Positions 22,579 through 43,806 of a stretch of DNA of 64,000 bases are shown piece by piece. This DNA comes from Dysgonamonadaceae bacterium. Lineage in GTDB: Bacteria > Bacteroidota > Bacteroidia > Bacteroidales > Dysgonomonadaceae. Within the stretch, counting starts at the first letter, position 1. Each line of letters opens with the position of its first letter. The notes beneath the pieces are model-generated. The model was not told the origin of the DNA. It ran no database searches and worked only from the letters and a program-made list of their open reading frames with translations. The position numbers and the translations under genes are program-made. The stretch lies in assembly GCA_031272205.1 (NCBI GenBank), contig JAISUH010000090.1, positions 1 through 64,000 of the forward strand. Direction: 5' to 3'.

Positions 22579-23706
22579 TTACACCCACATCAATTCGCTC
22601 ATGATTCCGTCGGAGATAAAGAGGCCTTCACGCGACAATTTCAGCACGTTTTTTTCAACAGTCAGCAATCCTGCATCGATAAACTTTTGGGCGTTATCTA
22701 TAGCATATCGCCGCAGTTCTTGGCCGAAGCGCTTTTCCAAAAGCTGCAAATCCACCCCCCAAACAGTTCTCAATCCGGTCAGTATAAACTCGTTGTATCG
22801 TTCTTCTTTCGACAAGGATTCTGTTTCACGGTAAAGCGTTCCGCTTGCCATTGCCTCAATGTATCTTTTCAACGAAGCCGGGTTCCACGACCGCTCCTGC
22901 CTTGTGAAGGAATGTGCCGCAGGCCCCAGTCCGAGATAGTCTTTTCCTTGCCAGTACGATAAATTGTGGCGCGAAAACCATCCGTCACGGGCAAAATTGG
23001 ATATTTCGTAATGTGTGAATCCGTTTTTAGTCAGGTTTTCAATCAGCAGCGAAAACATGCAGTTGCTCGTTTCCTCATCCACGGGCTGTATTTTTCCCGC
23101 TTTGCGCATCAGGTAGAGCCGGGTTTTTTCTTCATAAATCAGATGGTAAGCCGAAATATGAGGAATGTTCAGTTCGATGGCTTTATCGATATTGCGCTGC
23201 CATAGTTCGAGGCTTTGCCGGGGCAGACCATACATCAAGTCGATGGATATATTCTCAAATCCGGCTTTCCGGCACGCTTTCACTGCATTTTCGGCTTGTC
23301 CGGCAGTGTGCCGCCGACTTAAAAATTTCAGTTCGTCGTCGTCGAAACTTTGTATGCCGATACTGATACGATTGAAGGGAAGGGTGCGAAGCTCGCCGAT
23401 AGTATTGTCGGATAAATCATCGGGGTTCGCCTCCAAGGTAATTTCCGCATCGGGGGCAATTTGATATTCCGAAGACAAGGCTTCGAAGATTTGCACGAAA
23501 TGCTTTTTCTGCAACCTCGACGGTGTGCCGCCTCCAAAATAAATGGTTTCCACACGCTCATCCCCTATCTCTTTTTTTCGTAGCGCGGCTTCAACGCACA
23601 AGGCATCCGTAAAAGCGTCGATTTCACGCTCGTTGGTTCCCGAGTAGAAATCGCAATAAATGCAGCGCGTTTTGCAAAAGGGGATATGAAGGTAAATGCC
23701 TGCCAA
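22579..23706 (-). CDS. hemW: Radical SAM haem chaperone HemW (TTG start)
   Basis: A 375-residue radical SAM protein. The cluster-binding cysteines are C11, C15 and C18 in IPFCKTRCIYCDF; the CDF ending and absence of the fourth cysteine separate HemW from true HemN. IYFGGGTPSRL and the C-terminal HemN-C-like region complete the family. HemW binds haem and delivers it to membrane haemoproteins. The start must be the TTG at 23706, because the cluster motif comes within 20 residues and no ATG precedes it. The TTG directly follows the stop codon of the HD gene, so translation is probably coupled. Confidence 0.94.
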   Translation of the reverse strand: MAGIYLHIPFCKTRCIYCDFYSGTNEREIDAFTDALCVEAALRKKEIGDERVETIYFGGGTPSRLQKKHFVQIFEALSSEYQIAPDAEITLEANPDDLSDNTIGELRTLPFNRISIGIQSFDDDELKFLSRRHTAGQAENAVKACRKAGFENISIDLMYGLPRQSLELWQRNIDKAIELNIPHISAYHLIYEEKTRLYLMRKAGKIQPVDEETSNCMFSLLIENLTKNGFTHYEISNFARDGWFSRHNLSYWQGKDYLGLGPAAHSFTRQERSWNPASLKRYIEAMASGTLYRETESLSKEERYNEFILTGLRTVWGVDLQLLEKRFGQELRRYAIDNAQKFIDAGLLTVEKNVLKLSREGLFISDGIMSELMWV

Positions 23707-37539: not shown

Positions 37540-38925
37540 TCAAATCTGCCGGATCATTTTTTCGGCAAAACGCAGCCCCTGTTCCATGCGGTTAGCCATA
37601 CCGATGCCGTCGCGGAGATTTCCCAAGATGTGCAGCCCCGAAAAACGCGATTCTGCGATAGAGACAGCTTCCAAGCGTTCATCCGTAGATATTTCATATT
37701 GGGGGATAGCGTGTTTGTGGCGGAACAGACGGATAAAATCGGGATTTTTCGCAGCCGGAAATTTCAACATTCGGTGAAACTCGCGGACAACAATGTTTTC
37801 GAGTTGCGCATCGTCCCGATCAAAAATATCCGGCCTTTGAATTCCGCCCATAAAAAAGGAGAACAGCGCTCCTTTTTCGGGCGCACGCCCGTCGAAACAA
37901 GCCGACGGGAAGAGAATGCCAAGCACATCCTCGCCGTCTTTCGATGAAACCAATCCACCAAAAGCCTTGAAATCAAGCCTGTCTCTGTCATCGATGCCAA
38001 CTGCCGCCTGCACAATGGGAGCATAGCGGATATTCGTTATTTTCCGCATTATCGCTTCGTCGATGAAAGGCATTAAATCGGGTAGTGCATAAGCTCCGAC
38101 TGTAAATACTACGTGTTGTGATTGAAGGGTTTTTTTCTCTCCGTTTTCTGCGAAAATTGTTATCCACGAATGGTTTTCGTCTTTCGGCAATATGGATATA
38201 CCGTTTACAGACAAAAAAACATTTTCACTCCCAATGCGTTTCGCCAAGGCTTCGGGCAGTCGCGACAAACCGCTTTTTATCGAAAAAATACCTTTTTTGA
38301 ATGTTTTTTCTCCATTTTTCAATGCCGCTTTTTTTTCTTTCGCTTTCGCGATGGAACCGCCGATGAAACTGCCGTAGTTCTGCTCCAAATTGTAGAGTTT
38401 AGGCAAGGCATGGCGGGTAATCAACATATTGGGATCGCCTGCATAAATGCCCGAAAGGAACGGATTCACGGCATAATCGACAAAGGATTTTCCCAATCGC
38501 CGCGCCGCCAACGAAGCGACCGACTCGTCGGGATTCGTCCCCTTAGCCCGAAAAGGCTCACCCAAGATACGGAATTTATCCGAAAAAGTAAACAAAGGCG
38601 TTGTGATGCCTCCCCACAGACCATTGGGCAGCGGATGAAATTTACCGTCCTTCCAAATCCGGCGGGATTCGGCTTCCGGCTTGGCGAATTCCACTTCGCA
38701 ATCGGGCTGCAATTCATCGAAAAGATCGGATACCTCTATCGAGGAAATAACGCCCGTATTAGGCCCCGACTCAAACAGAAAACCCCGCTCGGCAAGCGTG
38801 CGGATTTGTCCGCCGACGTAATCGTTTTTCTCCAAAACGGCAACCGAAAAACCTTTTTGTTTCAAGGCGAAAGCCGTTGTTAATCCGGTCAATCCCGCAC
38901 CGATAATCAAAAAATCTTTTTCCAT
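37540..38925 (-). CDS. hemG: Protoporphyrinogen oxidase (HemY-type)
   Basis: A 461-residue FAD enzyme of the HemY/PPOX class. The dinucleotide fold is FLIIGAGLTGLTTAFAL followed by EKNDYVGGQIRT and FESGPNT, conserved in this class. The C-terminal flavin contact is SGLHILGNLRDGIGMANRMEQ. It oxidises protoporphyrinogen IX (or coproporphyrinogen III in the Gram-positive route) to the porphyrin. The partner HemN makes protoporphyrinogen, so the first substrate is likelier. It starts 14 bases after hemN and is last in the putative receptor-permease-hemN-hemG operon. The electron acceptor in an anaerobe is not known from sequence. Confidence 0.94.
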   Translation of the reverse strand: MEKDFLIIGAGLTGLTTAFALKQKGFSVAVLEKNDYVGGQIRTLAERGFLFESGPNTGVISSIEVSDLFDELQPDCEVEFAKPEAESRRIWKDGKFHPLPNGLWGGITTPLFTFSDKFRILGEPFRAKGTNPDESVASLAARRLGKSFVDYAVNPFLSGIYAGDPNMLITRHALPKLYNLEQNYGSFIGGSIAKAKEKKAALKNGEKTFKKGIFSIKSGLSRLPEALAKRIGSENVFLSVNGISILPKDENHSWITIFAENGEKKTLQSQHVVFTVGAYALPDLMPFIDEAIMRKITNIRYAPIVQAAVGIDDRDRLDFKAFGGLVSSKDGEDVLGILFPSACFDGRAPEKGALFSFFMGGIQRPDIFDRDDAQLENIVVREFHRMLKFPAAKNPDFIRLFRHKHAIPQYEISTDERLEAVSIAESRFSGLHILGNLRDGIGMANRMEQGLRFAEKMIRQI

Positions 38926-38939
38926 TTCAACATTTATTT

Positions 38940-40307
38940 TTAGACGGGGGTGGAAAACAATTTGTTTGCTCCCTGCAACAACACATCGAGCGAAGCCGCC
39001 ACATTGCGGATAAAAGGCGAGCCTTTTTCCAACATGACAAGGCCTTCTTCGTCCAAGCGAATGATTCCGTCATCCGCAAATCCCTGCATTTTTTGTTCGG
39101 AAAAAGCCGTGGCTTGCTTCACATCGGCAACGGAAATATTCATCCGCGAAGCGATTTGCCGCCAATTGATCCTCTCGTTACACATAAGGTCGGTAATCAC
39201 TTCGCGCACAATCTGTTCACGTTCCGTCAGCGCATAACCTTTCTCAACGGGAAGATGTCCGCTTTCCAGCGTTTCGATGTACTGAGCCATATTTTTTGTG
39301 TTTTGCGTATAGGCCATCGACAGTTGCGAAATGCCCGTAACGCCGAAGGCGTAAACCTGACCGGTCGTCCGGCGCGTGCAATACCCCTGAAAATTGCGAT
39401 GGAGCTCGCCCTTTTGCAAGGCGGCGTACAGTTCGTCGTCCTCGCGTACAAAGTGGTCGAGCCCAACGGCTTTATACCCGCTTTCGAACAGCAATATCCG
39501 GGCTTTTTCGAACATCCGTTCTTTTTCTTCGCGTTCCGGCAAACCCCGCTTGTCCAATACAAGTTGTCTGGGAAAGAGCGACGGGAGGTGTGCGTAAGAA
39601 AAGGTAACCAAACGGTCGGGCGACAGGTCTATCGCTTTTCCGATGGTCTTGGAAAAACGTTCTGCCGTTTGCAGCGGCAAGCCGTAAATAAAATCGAGAT
39701 TGATACGGATCTTGTTTTGCCTCAAAAATTTAAAAATCCGCTCAATGGGAAGCAATGCCGATTTGCGATTAACAGCCTTCAGCACGTTATTATCGAAATC
39801 CTGAATACCGAGGCTCATACGGTTGAATCCTGCGCCAACTAACGAAGCGAAACCGGATTCGTCCATATATCCCGGATGGCACTCGATAGCTATTTCGGGG
39901 TTCGCGATACGGTCGAAACGCGACAACAATGCTCGGTTTATTTTTTCAATAAAAGCCGCAGGGATAGCCGTCGGCGTCCCGCCGCCGTAGTGGATCTGCG
40001 CAATTTTGCGATTGGAACGGATATACCCGCAAACGAGATCGATCTCTTTCAACACCGCATCTACATAACGAGACACTTCGTCGGTCTTCGCCATCGGGTA
40101 AGAATTGCAGCCGCAATAAAAACACATTTGCCTGCAATATGGGATGTGGATGTAGAACGACAGGTGCGGCGGGTCGGTCTCGTTAGAACGGACTATCGCC
40201 TTGTGCAAATCCTCTTCCGAAAAACCCGACCTGAAAAAATTTGCCGGAGGGTAACTCGTGTAACGAGGAACGGGTACGTTGTATTTTTGTAACAAACCGG
40301 TATTCAT
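38940..40307 (-). CDS. hemN: Oxygen-independent coproporphyrinogen III oxidase HemN
   Basis: A 455-residue radical SAM enzyme from ATG 40307, which overlaps the permease stop by 4 bases (ATGA). The four-cysteine motif is complete: C58, C62, C65 and C67 in YCRQMCFYCGC. The N-terminal RYTSYPPANFF, which binds substrate and the second SAM, marks true HemN rather than HemW. HYGGGTPTAI and the HemN C-terminal domain follow. It decarboxylates two propionates of coproporphyrinogen III to give protoporphyrinogen IX without oxygen. It sits between the permease and hemG. Confidence 0.97.
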   Translation of the reverse strand: MNTGLLQKYNVPVPRYTSYPPANFFRSGFSEEDLHKAIVRSNETDPPHLSFYIHIPYCRQMCFYCGCNSYPMAKTDEVSRYVDAVLKEIDLVCGYIRSNRKIAQIHYGGGTPTAIPAAFIEKINRALLSRFDRIANPEIAIECHPGYMDESGFASLVGAGFNRMSLGIQDFDNNVLKAVNRKSALLPIERIFKFLRQNKIRINLDFIYGLPLQTAERFSKTIGKAIDLSPDRLVTFSYAHLPSLFPRQLVLDKRGLPEREEKERMFEKARILLFESGYKAVGLDHFVREDDELYAALQKGELHRNFQGYCTRRTTGQVYAFGVTGISQLSMAYTQNTKNMAQYIETLESGHLPVEKGYALTEREQIVREVITDLMCNERINWRQIASRMNISVADVKQATAFSEQKMQGFADDGIIRLDEEGLVMLEKGSPFIRNVAASLDVLLQGANKLFSTPV

Positions 40308-41530
40308 TCGCCTTCTCCTTTCTCGCTTTTCAACGCATAAACCTTCGATTGGTAAATCCAAACGTAAATGCACGAAACAAGGGCTAATAGCAATTCAAAA
40401 GCGAACAACCCGACAAAGCCGAACATATCGCCAAAACGTGAACAGCCAAAGGCTACGATCATGGAACTGAGCTGAGCGATAACGATTTGCATCGTAAAAT
40501 CAGTGCCTTCGCGGCCATCGCGCACAATATCCATCGACGCCGTATAAACCATGGTGGAAGCCATGCCGTAAGTCCCCCAAACCAATACGATGCCTATTAT
40601 CATTATCAGTCGCGTGAATCCGCCTGCAAGCGTAAAACAGAGGAAATAAGCCGCTACAAAAACAATGACGACTGAGATGATTCTCCTCGCCCGGTCTTTT
40701 CCAATCCTACGAATCAGCAAACCCGACAAAAACGAACAGACAATACCGACCGCCGAACCAAAAATACCAACCATCACGCCAATTTGCGCCATCGAGTATT
40801 TTAAATCGACCATGAGAGAGGTTAGCGTGGACAAGATACCTATTAATCCCGAATAAAACAAAAACAAAAACACAACGTGTTTCCAAATGCCTTTCTGAGC
40901 AAAAAACCGGAATGAATCCTTCCAATTAGCGCGGTTCTTGGTTTCGCGTTTGCGAAGTTTCAAATTGCGATTCAAAACCAAGGGTACAAGAGCTGCAAGA
41001 ACAAACAGGGCTACAAAAGGCAACAATTTTCCCCAGCCGACCCGATGAAAAAGCATCAGCAAAAAACCGCCGCCCACCATTCTTCCGGTAAACAAACCCA
41101 TGGTCTGCATGCTGTTCAGGAGACTGCTGTCTTTCCGTTCGAAGGAACGGGCTGCCATAGCGTCGGTAGCGATGTCTTGCGTGGCGGAAGCAACAAAGGC
41201 AAAAACCACCAGCCCGATGATAAGTGCAAACTCCGTTCTGAGGTTCAAAAATGCCACGCCAAAAATGATAAGCGCGTAAATGATCTCCGACCCGATAATC
41301 CACCGTTTGTAATCGCGAACCGAATCGGTGCGACTATCAACCCAAGGCGACCACAAGAACTTAAATATCCACGGCAATTTGATGAGTTTCAGCAAAGCGA
41401 TGGCCAATAGCGAATATTCGCCTTGACGCATCAATACCGGCAGCACCGTAGCAAAAAAACTCATGGGAATGGCCTGTGCTATATATAGCGAAAAGAAGGT
41501 GAAAAGATGATATGTTTTTTCTGTTTTCAT
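40304..41530 (-). CDS. MFS permease, AmpG/RhtX-FptX-like
   Basis: A 408-residue, 12-segment inner-membrane transporter from ATG 41530. The early signature KLIKLPWIFKFLWSPWVDS is the AmpG/siderophore-permease motif (compare PWxxKFLWSPLVD). FVASATQDIATDAMA in segment 4 is also characteristic. This branch includes AmpG (muropeptides) and the single-protein siderophore permeases RhtX and FptX. Here it lies 40 bases after a TonB-dependent receptor and overlaps hemN by 4 bases, so the cargo may be a porphyrin precursor or iron chelate. That is inference from context; sequence alone does not give the substrate. Confidence 0.9.
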   Translation of the reverse strand: MKTEKTYHLFTFFSLYIAQAIPMSFFATVLPVLMRQGEYSLLAIALLKLIKLPWIFKFLWSPWVDSRTDSVRDYKRWIIGSEIIYALIIFGVAFLNLRTEFALIIGLVVFAFVASATQDIATDAMAARSFERKDSSLLNSMQTMGLFTGRMVGGGFLLMLFHRVGWGKLLPFVALFVLAALVPLVLNRNLKLRKRETKNRANWKDSFRFFAQKGIWKHVVFLFLFYSGLIGILSTLTSLMVDLKYSMAQIGVMVGIFGSAVGIVCSFLSGLLIRRIGKDRARRIISVVIVFVAAYFLCFTLAGGFTRLIMIIGIVLVWGTYGMASTMVYTASMDIVRDGREGTDFTMQIVIAQLSSMIVAFGCSRFGDMFGFVGLFAFELLLALVSCIYVWIYQSKVYALKSEKGEGE

Positions 41531-41570
41531 TTTCCTGATGTAAAGTCGTCGATTTGCAAACAATTGAATA

Positions 41571-43703
41571 TCAGAATCGATAAGCGATACTTCCTCCTAT
41601 CGATAAGGGTTTACTCGGTTTGCCCAACTTCCGTCCCGATACTTCGTAATAATACCCCAAATACTGGGTATCTGTAAGGTTACGTCCCCATAACGAAACT
41701 TCAATCTGTTTTTTCACGGCCGCGATTTGCGCGTTAAGCAAGCCGTAAAAGGGTTGGGCGACATCGTTTTTTTCGTTCCAATACAGGGTTCCCAAACCTT
41801 TGTAATTGCAGCTAAGTGACAATTTATCGGCAAGAGCGCTGCGACGGAAGAAAAAATCATAACGTGCTCCTACCGACACGGTGTTTCGGGGAACGAAGGG
41901 CGTAAATTTTCCGGCAAAATCGTCATTGACGCCTGTGGATGAATTATAGAGCGAATATTCTTTGAATTTAGCGTGTGTGTAGCCGTAAGCAGCCGACAGA
42001 TGCAGATTTTTCCACGGATTCGCAGATACCGACAGTTCCAAACCCTTGTTCGCGCTCTTTCCCGCATTAACCATCCGAATGCCGGTTTCGGGAATCAACT
42101 GGCGAATCTGCTGGTTCTTCAAGTCGATGTAGAACAGTGCAAATTCGGTTTGCAGTCGGTTTTCAAAAAATGCCGATTTCCCGCCGATTTCATAGTTCCA
42201 ACTGCTTTCAGGGCCAAACGAGCGGTCTTTTTCGCTATCAAAAACCGTATTGAATCCGCCTGTTTTATAGCCTTTCGAAACGGTAACATAGAATTGTCCG
42301 TCCCGCATAAAATGATATTGCAACGACATTTTGGGCGTCCATTGCGAGAAAGTCATCGGGGCATCAAAATCTCCTACCGGAACGGGTGTTCCGTTGGTGA
42401 TTTTCTGCTCGCGATAGACCGAATTAGCCTTTTCCAAATCGTAGCGGATACCCGCCTCCAAAGTGAACAGTCTCCCGAATTTCAGCGTGGACTGGTGGTA
42501 GGCGGCAATGCCCCGATTGTAGTCGTCATAGCGTTTTTCCAATTTGTAGGGCGGATTGGTCATGTTCATCCATACATCCGTACTGCGGTTGATGTCGTGG
42601 TTGAACGCAAAAAAGCCAAAATGCCAGCTATACACGTCGGAATAGAGGTTTTTCAGGTTTATTTCTTGCGAAACAAGCCTCTGGGTTTCAGACTGAACAG
42701 CGTAATACTTATCATCCGGAGAAGCATCCTGATCAACATCGTAACGGTCGTCGAGCCATTGAAACGATGTGAGCGCGTATAACCAGAGTAAATCGTTGTG
42801 ATAATCCACGCGAAAACCGCTATCGTAAAGCTTGCGACGGTATTTGCTTCCGTGATCCAAGCTCACGGAATCCACCGCATTTTTCTTCTCGTTTACGTCG
42901 CCATAGGCGAAAGCTCCCTGTTCGGTATATTCAAAATTATTGGTCAATCGAAGATTCAGGTTGATTTGCGGACGCCATTCCAAACGTGTGTTCATCGAAG
43001 CGTTGTCGAGCCCGTCGGCTTTCTTTCCGGTATGTTCGTTCTTAATGAATCCGCCATAATGATTGTAATCGGCCGAAACGGTGTAACCCAGCTTGTCATT
43101 GATTTTATCGGAACGCGAAAACAAAACGTAACGCTCGTTATACGACCCGAAACGCAGGTTTACTCTCGAACCTTGGTACTTCAACGGCGATTTTGTATGC
43201 ACAAGGATAATCCCGCCCAAGGCGTTCCGCCCGTAGAGCGTACCTTGCGGGCCACGAAGAAACTCCACCTTTTCCACATCGGCAAGGTTGATATCGAAAG
43301 ACGATTTTTCGAAATGGGGGATGCCGTCCACATACATGGCCACACCCGGAGCATTCACTAACGAGCCGATGCCGCGTACAAAAACCGACGAGGTGAGGCG
43401 TGTGTCGCGGTCGATCATAATAAAATTGGGGACAAAGGCCGAAAAATCCTTTATCGTGTTCAACTGTGCCGATTGCATCTCGCTTTGCGAAACGGAGGTG
43501 GCTGAGATCGGCCGTTTCAGCTGGTTATTGGTATATTTCACCCCCAAAACGATAATGGAGTCGAGGCTGACTTGCCGCAACGAATCGACCTCATTTGCCG
43601 AAACGGCAAACGAGGGGATTAAAAGAGTGCAGGCCAATACCGTCCTGAGAAACACGTTTCGATGCCATTGTTCACCGAAACAACACTGCCGATAATTCTT
43701 CAT
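41571..43703 (-). CDS. TonB-dependent outer-membrane receptor
   Basis: A 710-residue receptor from ATG 43703 (another ATG 13 codons upstream is nearly on the predicted transcript start). A signal peptide is followed by the plug domain: FSAFVPNFIMIDRDTRLT, SVFVRGIGSLVNAPGVAMY, VDGIPHFEK and VEFLRGPQGTLYGRNALGG. Then comes a 22-strand barrel with FLRGPQGT and C-terminal GGSIAYRF ending in Phe. There is no SusC-type carboxypeptidase extension and no SusD gene, so glycan uptake is unlikely. The fold matches siderophore, haem and vitamin receptors. It is first in the unit receptor-MFS-hemN-hemG. Confidence 0.94.
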   Translation of the reverse strand: MKNYRQCCFGEQWHRNVFLRTVLACTLLIPSFAVSANEVDSLRQVSLDSIIVLGVKYTNNQLKRPISATSVSQSEMQSAQLNTIKDFSAFVPNFIMIDRDTRLTSSVFVRGIGSLVNAPGVAMYVDGIPHFEKSSFDINLADVEKVEFLRGPQGTLYGRNALGGIILVHTKSPLKYQGSRVNLRFGSYNERYVLFSRSDKINDKLGYTVSADYNHYGGFIKNEHTGKKADGLDNASMNTRLEWRPQINLNLRLTNNFEYTEQGAFAYGDVNEKKNAVDSVSLDHGSKYRRKLYDSGFRVDYHNDLLWLYALTSFQWLDDRYDVDQDASPDDKYYAVQSETQRLVSQEINLKNLYSDVYSWHFGFFAFNHDINRSTDVWMNMTNPPYKLEKRYDDYNRGIAAYHQSTLKFGRLFTLEAGIRYDLEKANSVYREQKITNGTPVPVGDFDAPMTFSQWTPKMSLQYHFMRDGQFYVTVSKGYKTGGFNTVFDSEKDRSFGPESSWNYEIGGKSAFFENRLQTEFALFYIDLKNQQIRQLIPETGIRMVNAGKSANKGLELSVSANPWKNLHLSAAYGYTHAKFKEYSLYNSSTGVNDDFAGKFTPFVPRNTVSVGARYDFFFRRSALADKLSLSCNYKGLGTLYWNEKNDVAQPFYGLLNAQIAAVKKQIEVSLWGRNLTDTQYLGYYYEVSGRKLGKPSKPLSIGGSIAYRF

Positions 43704-43756
43704 GTATTTTAAAAAAATTGCCGCAAGGACAAACAATACCATTCATTAATCGGATA

Positions 43757-43764
43757 CAAAATTA
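43757..43764 (-). promoter_or_regulatory. -7 promoter element for the receptor-MFS-hemN-hemG unit
   Basis: The minus strand reads TAATTTTG, a full match to TAnnTTTG, 53 bases before ATG 43703. It lies just after the terminator of the upstream radical SAM gene, so the receptor unit is likely transcribed independently. I see no convincing Fur or haem-regulator box. Confidence 0.55.
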
Positions 43765-43782: not shown

Positions 43783-43806
43783 AAAATCACTACTTATAGT
43801 GATTTT
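43783..43806 (-). terminator. Hairpin terminator at the end of the TIGR01212 gene
   Basis: AAAATCACTA (43783-43792) and TAGTGATTTT (43797-43806) form a perfect 10-bp stem with a CTTA loop, touching the stop codon of the radical SAM gene. On the minus strand it ends in five T. The stem is A/T rich, so strength is uncertain. Confidence 0.6.

Follow-up and report, generated by a model that had tools for sequence, protein, structure and literature searches.

A four-gene operon in the 64,000-nucleotide stretch of DNA analysed here (the window), from a Dysgonamonadaceae bacterium, likely serves to import a porphyrin precursor and to complete it. In this view, the cargo would be a tetrapyrrole intermediate, coproporphyrin(ogen) III being the most probable one; a TonB-dependent receptor would bring it through the outer membrane and an MFS permease through the inner one. 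HemN would then decarboxylate coproporphyrinogen III to protoporphyrinogen IX, HemG would oxidize this to protoporphyrin IX, and a ferrochelatase, encoded elsewhere in the host genome and within the operon in others, would insert iron. The operon would replace a lost early haem pathway, and its gut-type host would probably obtain the half-made haem ring from neighbouring organisms. Import of coproporphyrin(ogen) or a similar tetrapyrrole followed by completion had been proposed in a preliminary description made from the sequence alone; the proposal is supported, with the cargo and the direction of transport remaining inferences for which there are no uptake or growth data.

The import reading rests on what the host appears unable to make. 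Gene absences in its genome (G000, 2.33 Mb in 101 contigs) rest on profile searches, and hemB, hemC, hemE and hemF were not found by these searches in an assembly that is 82.8% complete. The gene hemC was also missing from all 19 family genomes searched, many of them more than 97% complete, so the hemC gap is not an accident of assembly. HemN is not known to use any substrate other than coproporphyrinogen III, and a host without hemB, hemC and hemE could not supply it, which argues for import. A ferrochelatase gene (hemH) is present outside the operon, where the preliminary description had expected one.

Gene layout and late-pathway enzymes

The receptor, permease, hemN and hemG genes lie in that order on the minus strand, as read from the window sequence and its open reading frames (Table 1). 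The permease ATG is at 41530, 40 nt past the receptor stop, hemN overlaps the permease gene by 4 nt (ATGA), and 14 nt separate hemN from hemG. This order, the spacings, the overlap and a -7 element upstream had all been claimed in the preliminary description and were confirmed exactly where it placed them. The window also carries a separate HemW-type radical-SAM haem chaperone gene, which is distinct from the operon hemN.

Table 1 Positions of the operon features in the window and of related features elsewhere
Feature	Location	Strand	Evidence
TonB-dependent outer-membrane receptor, 723 aa	41571-43742	-	Pfam PF07715 (Plug), PF00593 (barrel)
MFS permease, ~408 aa, AmpG/RhtX-like	40304-41530	-	TIGR02718 156 bits, AmpG 102 bits
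hemN, oxygen-independent coproporphyrinogen III dehydrogenase	38940-40307	-	TIGR00538 452 bits
hemG, HemY-type flavin protoporphyrinogen oxidase	37540-38925	-	TIGR00562 260 bits
-7 promoter box TAATTTTG (TAnnTTTG of Bacteroidota)	43757-43764	-	Sequence; fixed spacing to palindrome in relatives
Palindrome ATCACTA-N4-TAGTGAT, putative operator over -33 region	43786-43803	none	Sole window match
HemW-type radical-SAM haem chaperone gene	22579-23706		TIGR00539 306 bits
hemH (ferrochelatase) of the host genome	G000:C31:7060-8016		
Operon of Bacteroides fragilis Q1F2 (L121)	NZ_CP018937.1 ~1,570,973-1,576,954		Converted locus coordinates
HemN-less receptor-permease-HemG(-HemH) operons	L144 5045-9630, L145 5426-10058, L147 4684-10533		
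Operon with response-regulator-like gene, uncultured Dysgonomonas	L137 4914-7720		
Permease with histidine-rich insert, family f6 (G023)	L044 7231-8526		
HemN of G037	G037:C52:81619-82986		623 bits

Both late-pathway enzymes score above the curated cut-offs of their families. The hemN product passes TIGR00538 (325 bits) and can be aligned over its full length with E. coli HemN (1OLT); in this alignment the N-terminal PRYTSYP, the CxxxCxxCxC radical-SAM cluster, GGGTPT and HRNFQGY are all kept. The hemG product passes TIGR00562 (cut-off 98 bits), and among solved structures it matches the Myxococcus protoporphyrinogen oxidase 2IVD at 182 bits and B. subtilis 3I6D at 109 bits. HemG is thus likely a protoporphyrinogen rather than a coproporphyrinogen oxidase, an activity inferred from similarity only; its assignment as a HemY-type enzyme closest to protoporphyrinogen oxidases refines the earlier reading. 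Between close pairs, dN/dS is 0.03-0.11 for HemN, HemG, permease and receptor alike, which shows that all four genes are under purifying selection.

Two features of the enzymes sit less easily with the import reading. HemN requires the reduced, coproporphyrinogen form of its substrate, and no reductase for a porphyrin is found among the operon genes. Oxygen is the usual acceptor of HemY-type enzymes, and the hosts of the operon are probably anaerobic.

Conservation of the operon and loss of the early haem pathway

The receptor-permease-HemN(-HemG) order was found across the host family and beyond. Relatives of the permease occur in 470 stretches of a genome contig database, and neighbours were counted at the best 80 of these loci. 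A receptor lies ahead of the permease in 76 of 78, HemN directly follows the permease in 75 of 80, and HemG comes next in 44 of 74. Bacteroides fragilis Q1F2 has all four genes, and Parabacteroides also carries the operon. An even draw of 247 Bacteroidales genomes was searched for permease, HemN and hemC, which were present in 33, 67 and 44 genomes, respectively. The permease lies directly before HemN in 29 of the 33 permease genomes, and all 29 pairs are adjacent and co-directional. Holding in most of the best 80 loci and in 29 of 33 drawn genomes, the order is conserved far beyond chance.

The permease is also associated with the absence of hemC. Among drawn genomes with HemN, it is present in 26 of the 28 that lack hemC vs. 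three of the 39 that have it (P = 4e-13, Fisher test, relatedness ignored). The hemC-less genomes divide into 26 with HemN and permease, two with HemN alone, four with permease alone and 171 with neither (P = 2e-26, relatedness ignored), and hemC and permease occur together in only three genomes. In one of the two exceptions with HemN and neither hemC nor permease (G317), HemN-HemG is followed directly by hemE and hemA, which places this genome among the de novo ones although hemC is missing. On the HemN tree the hemC and permease labels interchange at least six times; about five of six phylogenetically independent pairs agree and essentially none is reversed, but the sign test reaches only P = 0.06. 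In families f3 and f123, the permease is absent from hemC-bearing members and present in a hemC-less one. In a wider draw of the class, strong permease matches came from five genomes; hemC was missing and HemN adjacent in all five. An unusually high HemN score (623 bits) was observed in a genome without hemC or importer, G037, whose HemN may be a contaminant or a foreign gene.

Importers of one kind were found beside different HemN lineages. In G422 (family f123, no hemC) the permease lies beside a HemN whose sister, with 100/100 support, is the HemN of G318, a de novo genome with hemC and no permease; this pair sits on a very long branch apart from every other operon HemN. In G385 the neighbour of the permease is a HemN that falls within a group of de novo HemNs. 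The permeases of G422 and G385 nonetheless group together, though with support of just 88%. The permease has become joined to clearly separate HemN lineages, and related importers beside different HemNs point to a functional link rather than to one inherited accident. Two HemNs coexist in G462, one on the hemC contig and the other in an importer operon.

The operon also varies at its downstream end, extending in pathway order by HemN, then HemG, then HemH. It ends with HemN in Dysgonomonas, with HemG in most genomes, and with a same-strand HemH in G028, G385, G472, G429, G357 and G481, among others; HemH is linked to the operon less often than HemN. There are also operons without HemN, which keep HemG (G294, G498) or HemG-HemH (G417), and neither HemN nor HemF was found in these three genomes. 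Such hosts would be unable to use coproporphyrinogen, so the range of cargo may be broader, and these operons likely import protoporphyrin(ogen), a second refinement of the preliminary description. This cargo is inferred, as is coproporphyrin(ogen) for operons that include HemN, the one in the window among them. The common theme, likewise an inference, would be a porphyrin(ogen) importer placed ahead of whichever late steps the host keeps.

Receptor, permease and promoter palindrome

The receptor has Plug and barrel domains only. The absence of a SusC extension claimed in the preliminary description held: a Pfam search found no N-terminal carboxypeptidase-regulatory-like (CarboxypepD/SusC) extension, and no SusD partner lies beside the receptor, which is flanked by the permease and an MnmL/YtqA-type radical-SAM gene. 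A SusC-type receptor is ruled out on both counts. The FRAP/NPNL boxes mark haem receptors, and a motif scan found them missing in 18 of 18 aligned receptors. The TonB haem receptor profile was rejected on these missing boxes and on score (TIGR01785, 92 bits against a cut-off of 317), and the TonB-dependent siderophore receptor profile on score (TIGR01783, 147 against 223.5). For the permease, neither RhtX/FptX (TIGR02718, 156 bits against 356, still the best NCBIfam match) nor the AmpG muropeptide permease (TIGR00901, 102 against 350) could be accepted. The AmpG/RhtX likeness described earlier thus held as a likeness, but not as membership of either family, and both proteins score below the cut-off of every named transporter family tested. 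The predicted fold of the receptor (pLDDT 78) is nearest to FyuA (TM 0.89 by target) and that of the permease (pLDDT 84) to AmpG; these model-based comparisons give only generic relatives and do not fix the cargo.

Charged residues conserved in the permease are R36, K52, K58, D66, K76, E83, D120, D124, D243, R338, E342 and D345 (numbers follow the aligned row and are one higher than when counted from the ATG start). In family f6 (L044, genome G023; L186, genome G384) the central loop of the permease contains a long histidine-rich insert, which reads HGHWFHRKRK...SHGHHKE in G023 and, judging by its sequence only, could bind metal. In Parabacteroides and Massilibacteroides loci (L079, L080, L085, L088, L114, L163) the permease is preceded by two receptors in tandem, with roughly 36% and 49% identity to the query receptors; the two perhaps differ in cargo.

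A perfect palindrome precedes the operon and is the only match at up to two mismatches in the 64 kb window, where 0.07 are expected. It lies upstream of 58 of 99 distinct related operons. Among 59 distinct sites with at most one mismatch, the spacing to the -7 box is 22 nt in 55 and 21 or 23 nt in three more, the palindrome of the window being one of those at 21 nt. No copy at up to one mismatch was found elsewhere in 2.27 Mb of loci, a scan that covered sequence near the operons only and whose single leftover match (L011) belongs to the D. macrotermitis permease promoter. The element is missing from more distant families. Here the palindrome directly follows the mnmL stop, and a role as mnmL terminator was considered and rejected because relatives keep the same spacing to the operon -7 box. 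The operon is likely under the control of a regulator binding to the palindrome over the -33 region, and the overlap of the right half-site with the expected -33 position suggests a repressor; this regulation is inferred, with no regulator found and no binding data. Such a palindromic operator of an import-completion operon appears to be undescribed. Two arrangements near it were observed: in Dysgonomonas macrotermitis (L040, L134) the receptor and permease are several kb apart and a copy of the palindrome lies before the permease itself, and in an uncultured Dysgonomonas (L137) a response-regulator-like gene follows the permease in place of HemN, with the palindrome kept.

Alternative explanations and relation to known systems

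One objection to coproporphyrin(ogen) import is that the two transport proteins are closer to siderophore systems (FyuA, RhtX/FptX) than to any haem importer. The three genomes with both hemC and permease, the HemN-less operons, the lack of a reductase in the operon and a normally oxygen-using type of HemG in a probable anaerobe also count against it. The preliminary description had named a complete early haem pathway in the genome, unconserved gene order, and receptor or permease relatives proven to carry something unrelated, for example a siderophore, as findings that would refute it. The first two were not borne out, and the third was so only in part: FyuA, the yersiniabactin receptor, is the nearest solved receptor, at 23% identity, and the permease is well under the RhtX/FptX cut-off. 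A siderophore route like FyuA/YbtX or FptA/FptX, sharing an operon with haem genes and perhaps feeding iron to haem synthesis, would account for the nearest receptor fold and the nearest permease profile. We consider it very unlikely, for the permease follows HemN and the lack of hemC, not iron metabolism, HemH, the step that uses iron, is linked less often than HemN, and the RhtX/FptX cut-off is not reached.

A general porphyrin importer, which would chiefly carry protoporphyrin IX (or haem) while HemN and HemG serve no more than a minor stream of precursor, is less remote though still unlikely. It is favored by the HemG and HemG-HemH operons of G294, G498 and G417, in genomes without HemN and HemF, and by the finding that protoporphyrin IX with iron supports growth of both P. 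gingivalis and B. fragilis (PMC13227078, PMC6460266). Against it, neither HemN nor HemG is needed after import of protoporphyrin IX or haem, yet HemN directly follows the permease in nearly all of the best loci, with its motifs intact, and tracks the loss of hemC; in addition, the receptor is without the haem-receptor boxes. Haem degradation, in which the radical-SAM protein would be a haem-opening enzyme of the ChuW/HutW type fed by a haem receptor, can be virtually dismissed. HemN is homologous to ChuW/HutW, but its 151 bits against TIGR04107 are far under the cut-off of 400 and its 452 bits against TIGR00538 well over 325, its substrate motifs are kept, and HemG and HemH are enzymes of synthesis.

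Coproporphyrin(ogen) import and completion, the reading we prefer, combines elements known separately. Haem pathways retaining only late steps are known in Porphyromonas, Bacteroides and Prevotella, as is growth on protoporphyrin IX (PMC13227078, PMC6460266). Porphyromonas gingivalis (HemD, HemN, HemG, HemH) has likewise lost the early genes and kept HemN, HemG and HemH, and its HemG can restore an E. coli hemG mutant (Kusaba 2002, cited in PMC13227078); however, no importer of precursors has been reported for this species, whereas the operon joins the late genes with a receptor and permease. The RhtX/FptX permeases and their TonB receptors (and FyuA) offer the nearest profile and fold and the same pairing of a single MFS permease with a single TonB receptor, but the operon differs in falling under the family cut-off, in having no siderophore genes noticed nearby and in its linkage to haem synthesis. 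HmuR/HmuY and other TonB haem receptors are also TonB-dependent and serve the haem needs of auxotrophs; unlike them, the operon receptor is without FRAP/NPNL and lies beside synthesis enzymes, not haem-handling proteins. Coproporphyrin from a neighbour is a growth factor for a Leucobacter auxotroph (Bhuiyan 2016, cited in PMC11139205), for which, to our knowledge, no uptake system is known; Leucobacter is an actinobacterium, whereas the operon is a candidate Gram-negative uptake system. The preliminary description had considered a dedicated import-plus-completion operon new, and no bacterial coproporphyrin importer was found in the open-access literature searched, most subscription papers being outside the search. 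The families of the parts are known; their combination and its tie to loss of the early pathway appear undescribed.

A bolder reading, toward which we lean by a narrow margin when its parts are taken jointly, is that across Bacteroidales a dedicated coproporphyrin(ogen) importer, repeatedly joined to the kept HemN (and HemG, HemH), makes up for the lost early pathway, with a private palindromic operator in the Dysgonomonadaceae/Tannerellaceae branch, and that half-made rings are exchanged as a public good in sediments and in the guts of animals. The import reading is testable in cultured strains, as the operon occurs in Bacteroides fragilis and in Parabacteroides. If true, it would explain the retention of HemN and HemG in haem-requiring Bacteroidales, which would be pointless if the cell had no supply of coproporphyrinogen, and would supply genes for the long-known use of diverse tetrapyrroles by rumen Bacteroides (Caldwell 1965; McCall and Caldwell 1977, cited in PMC6460266). 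It would also pinpoint a bacterial system for coproporphyrin uptake, along with a nutrient that is cross-fed in gut and sediment communities, and may help to bring auxotrophs into culture.
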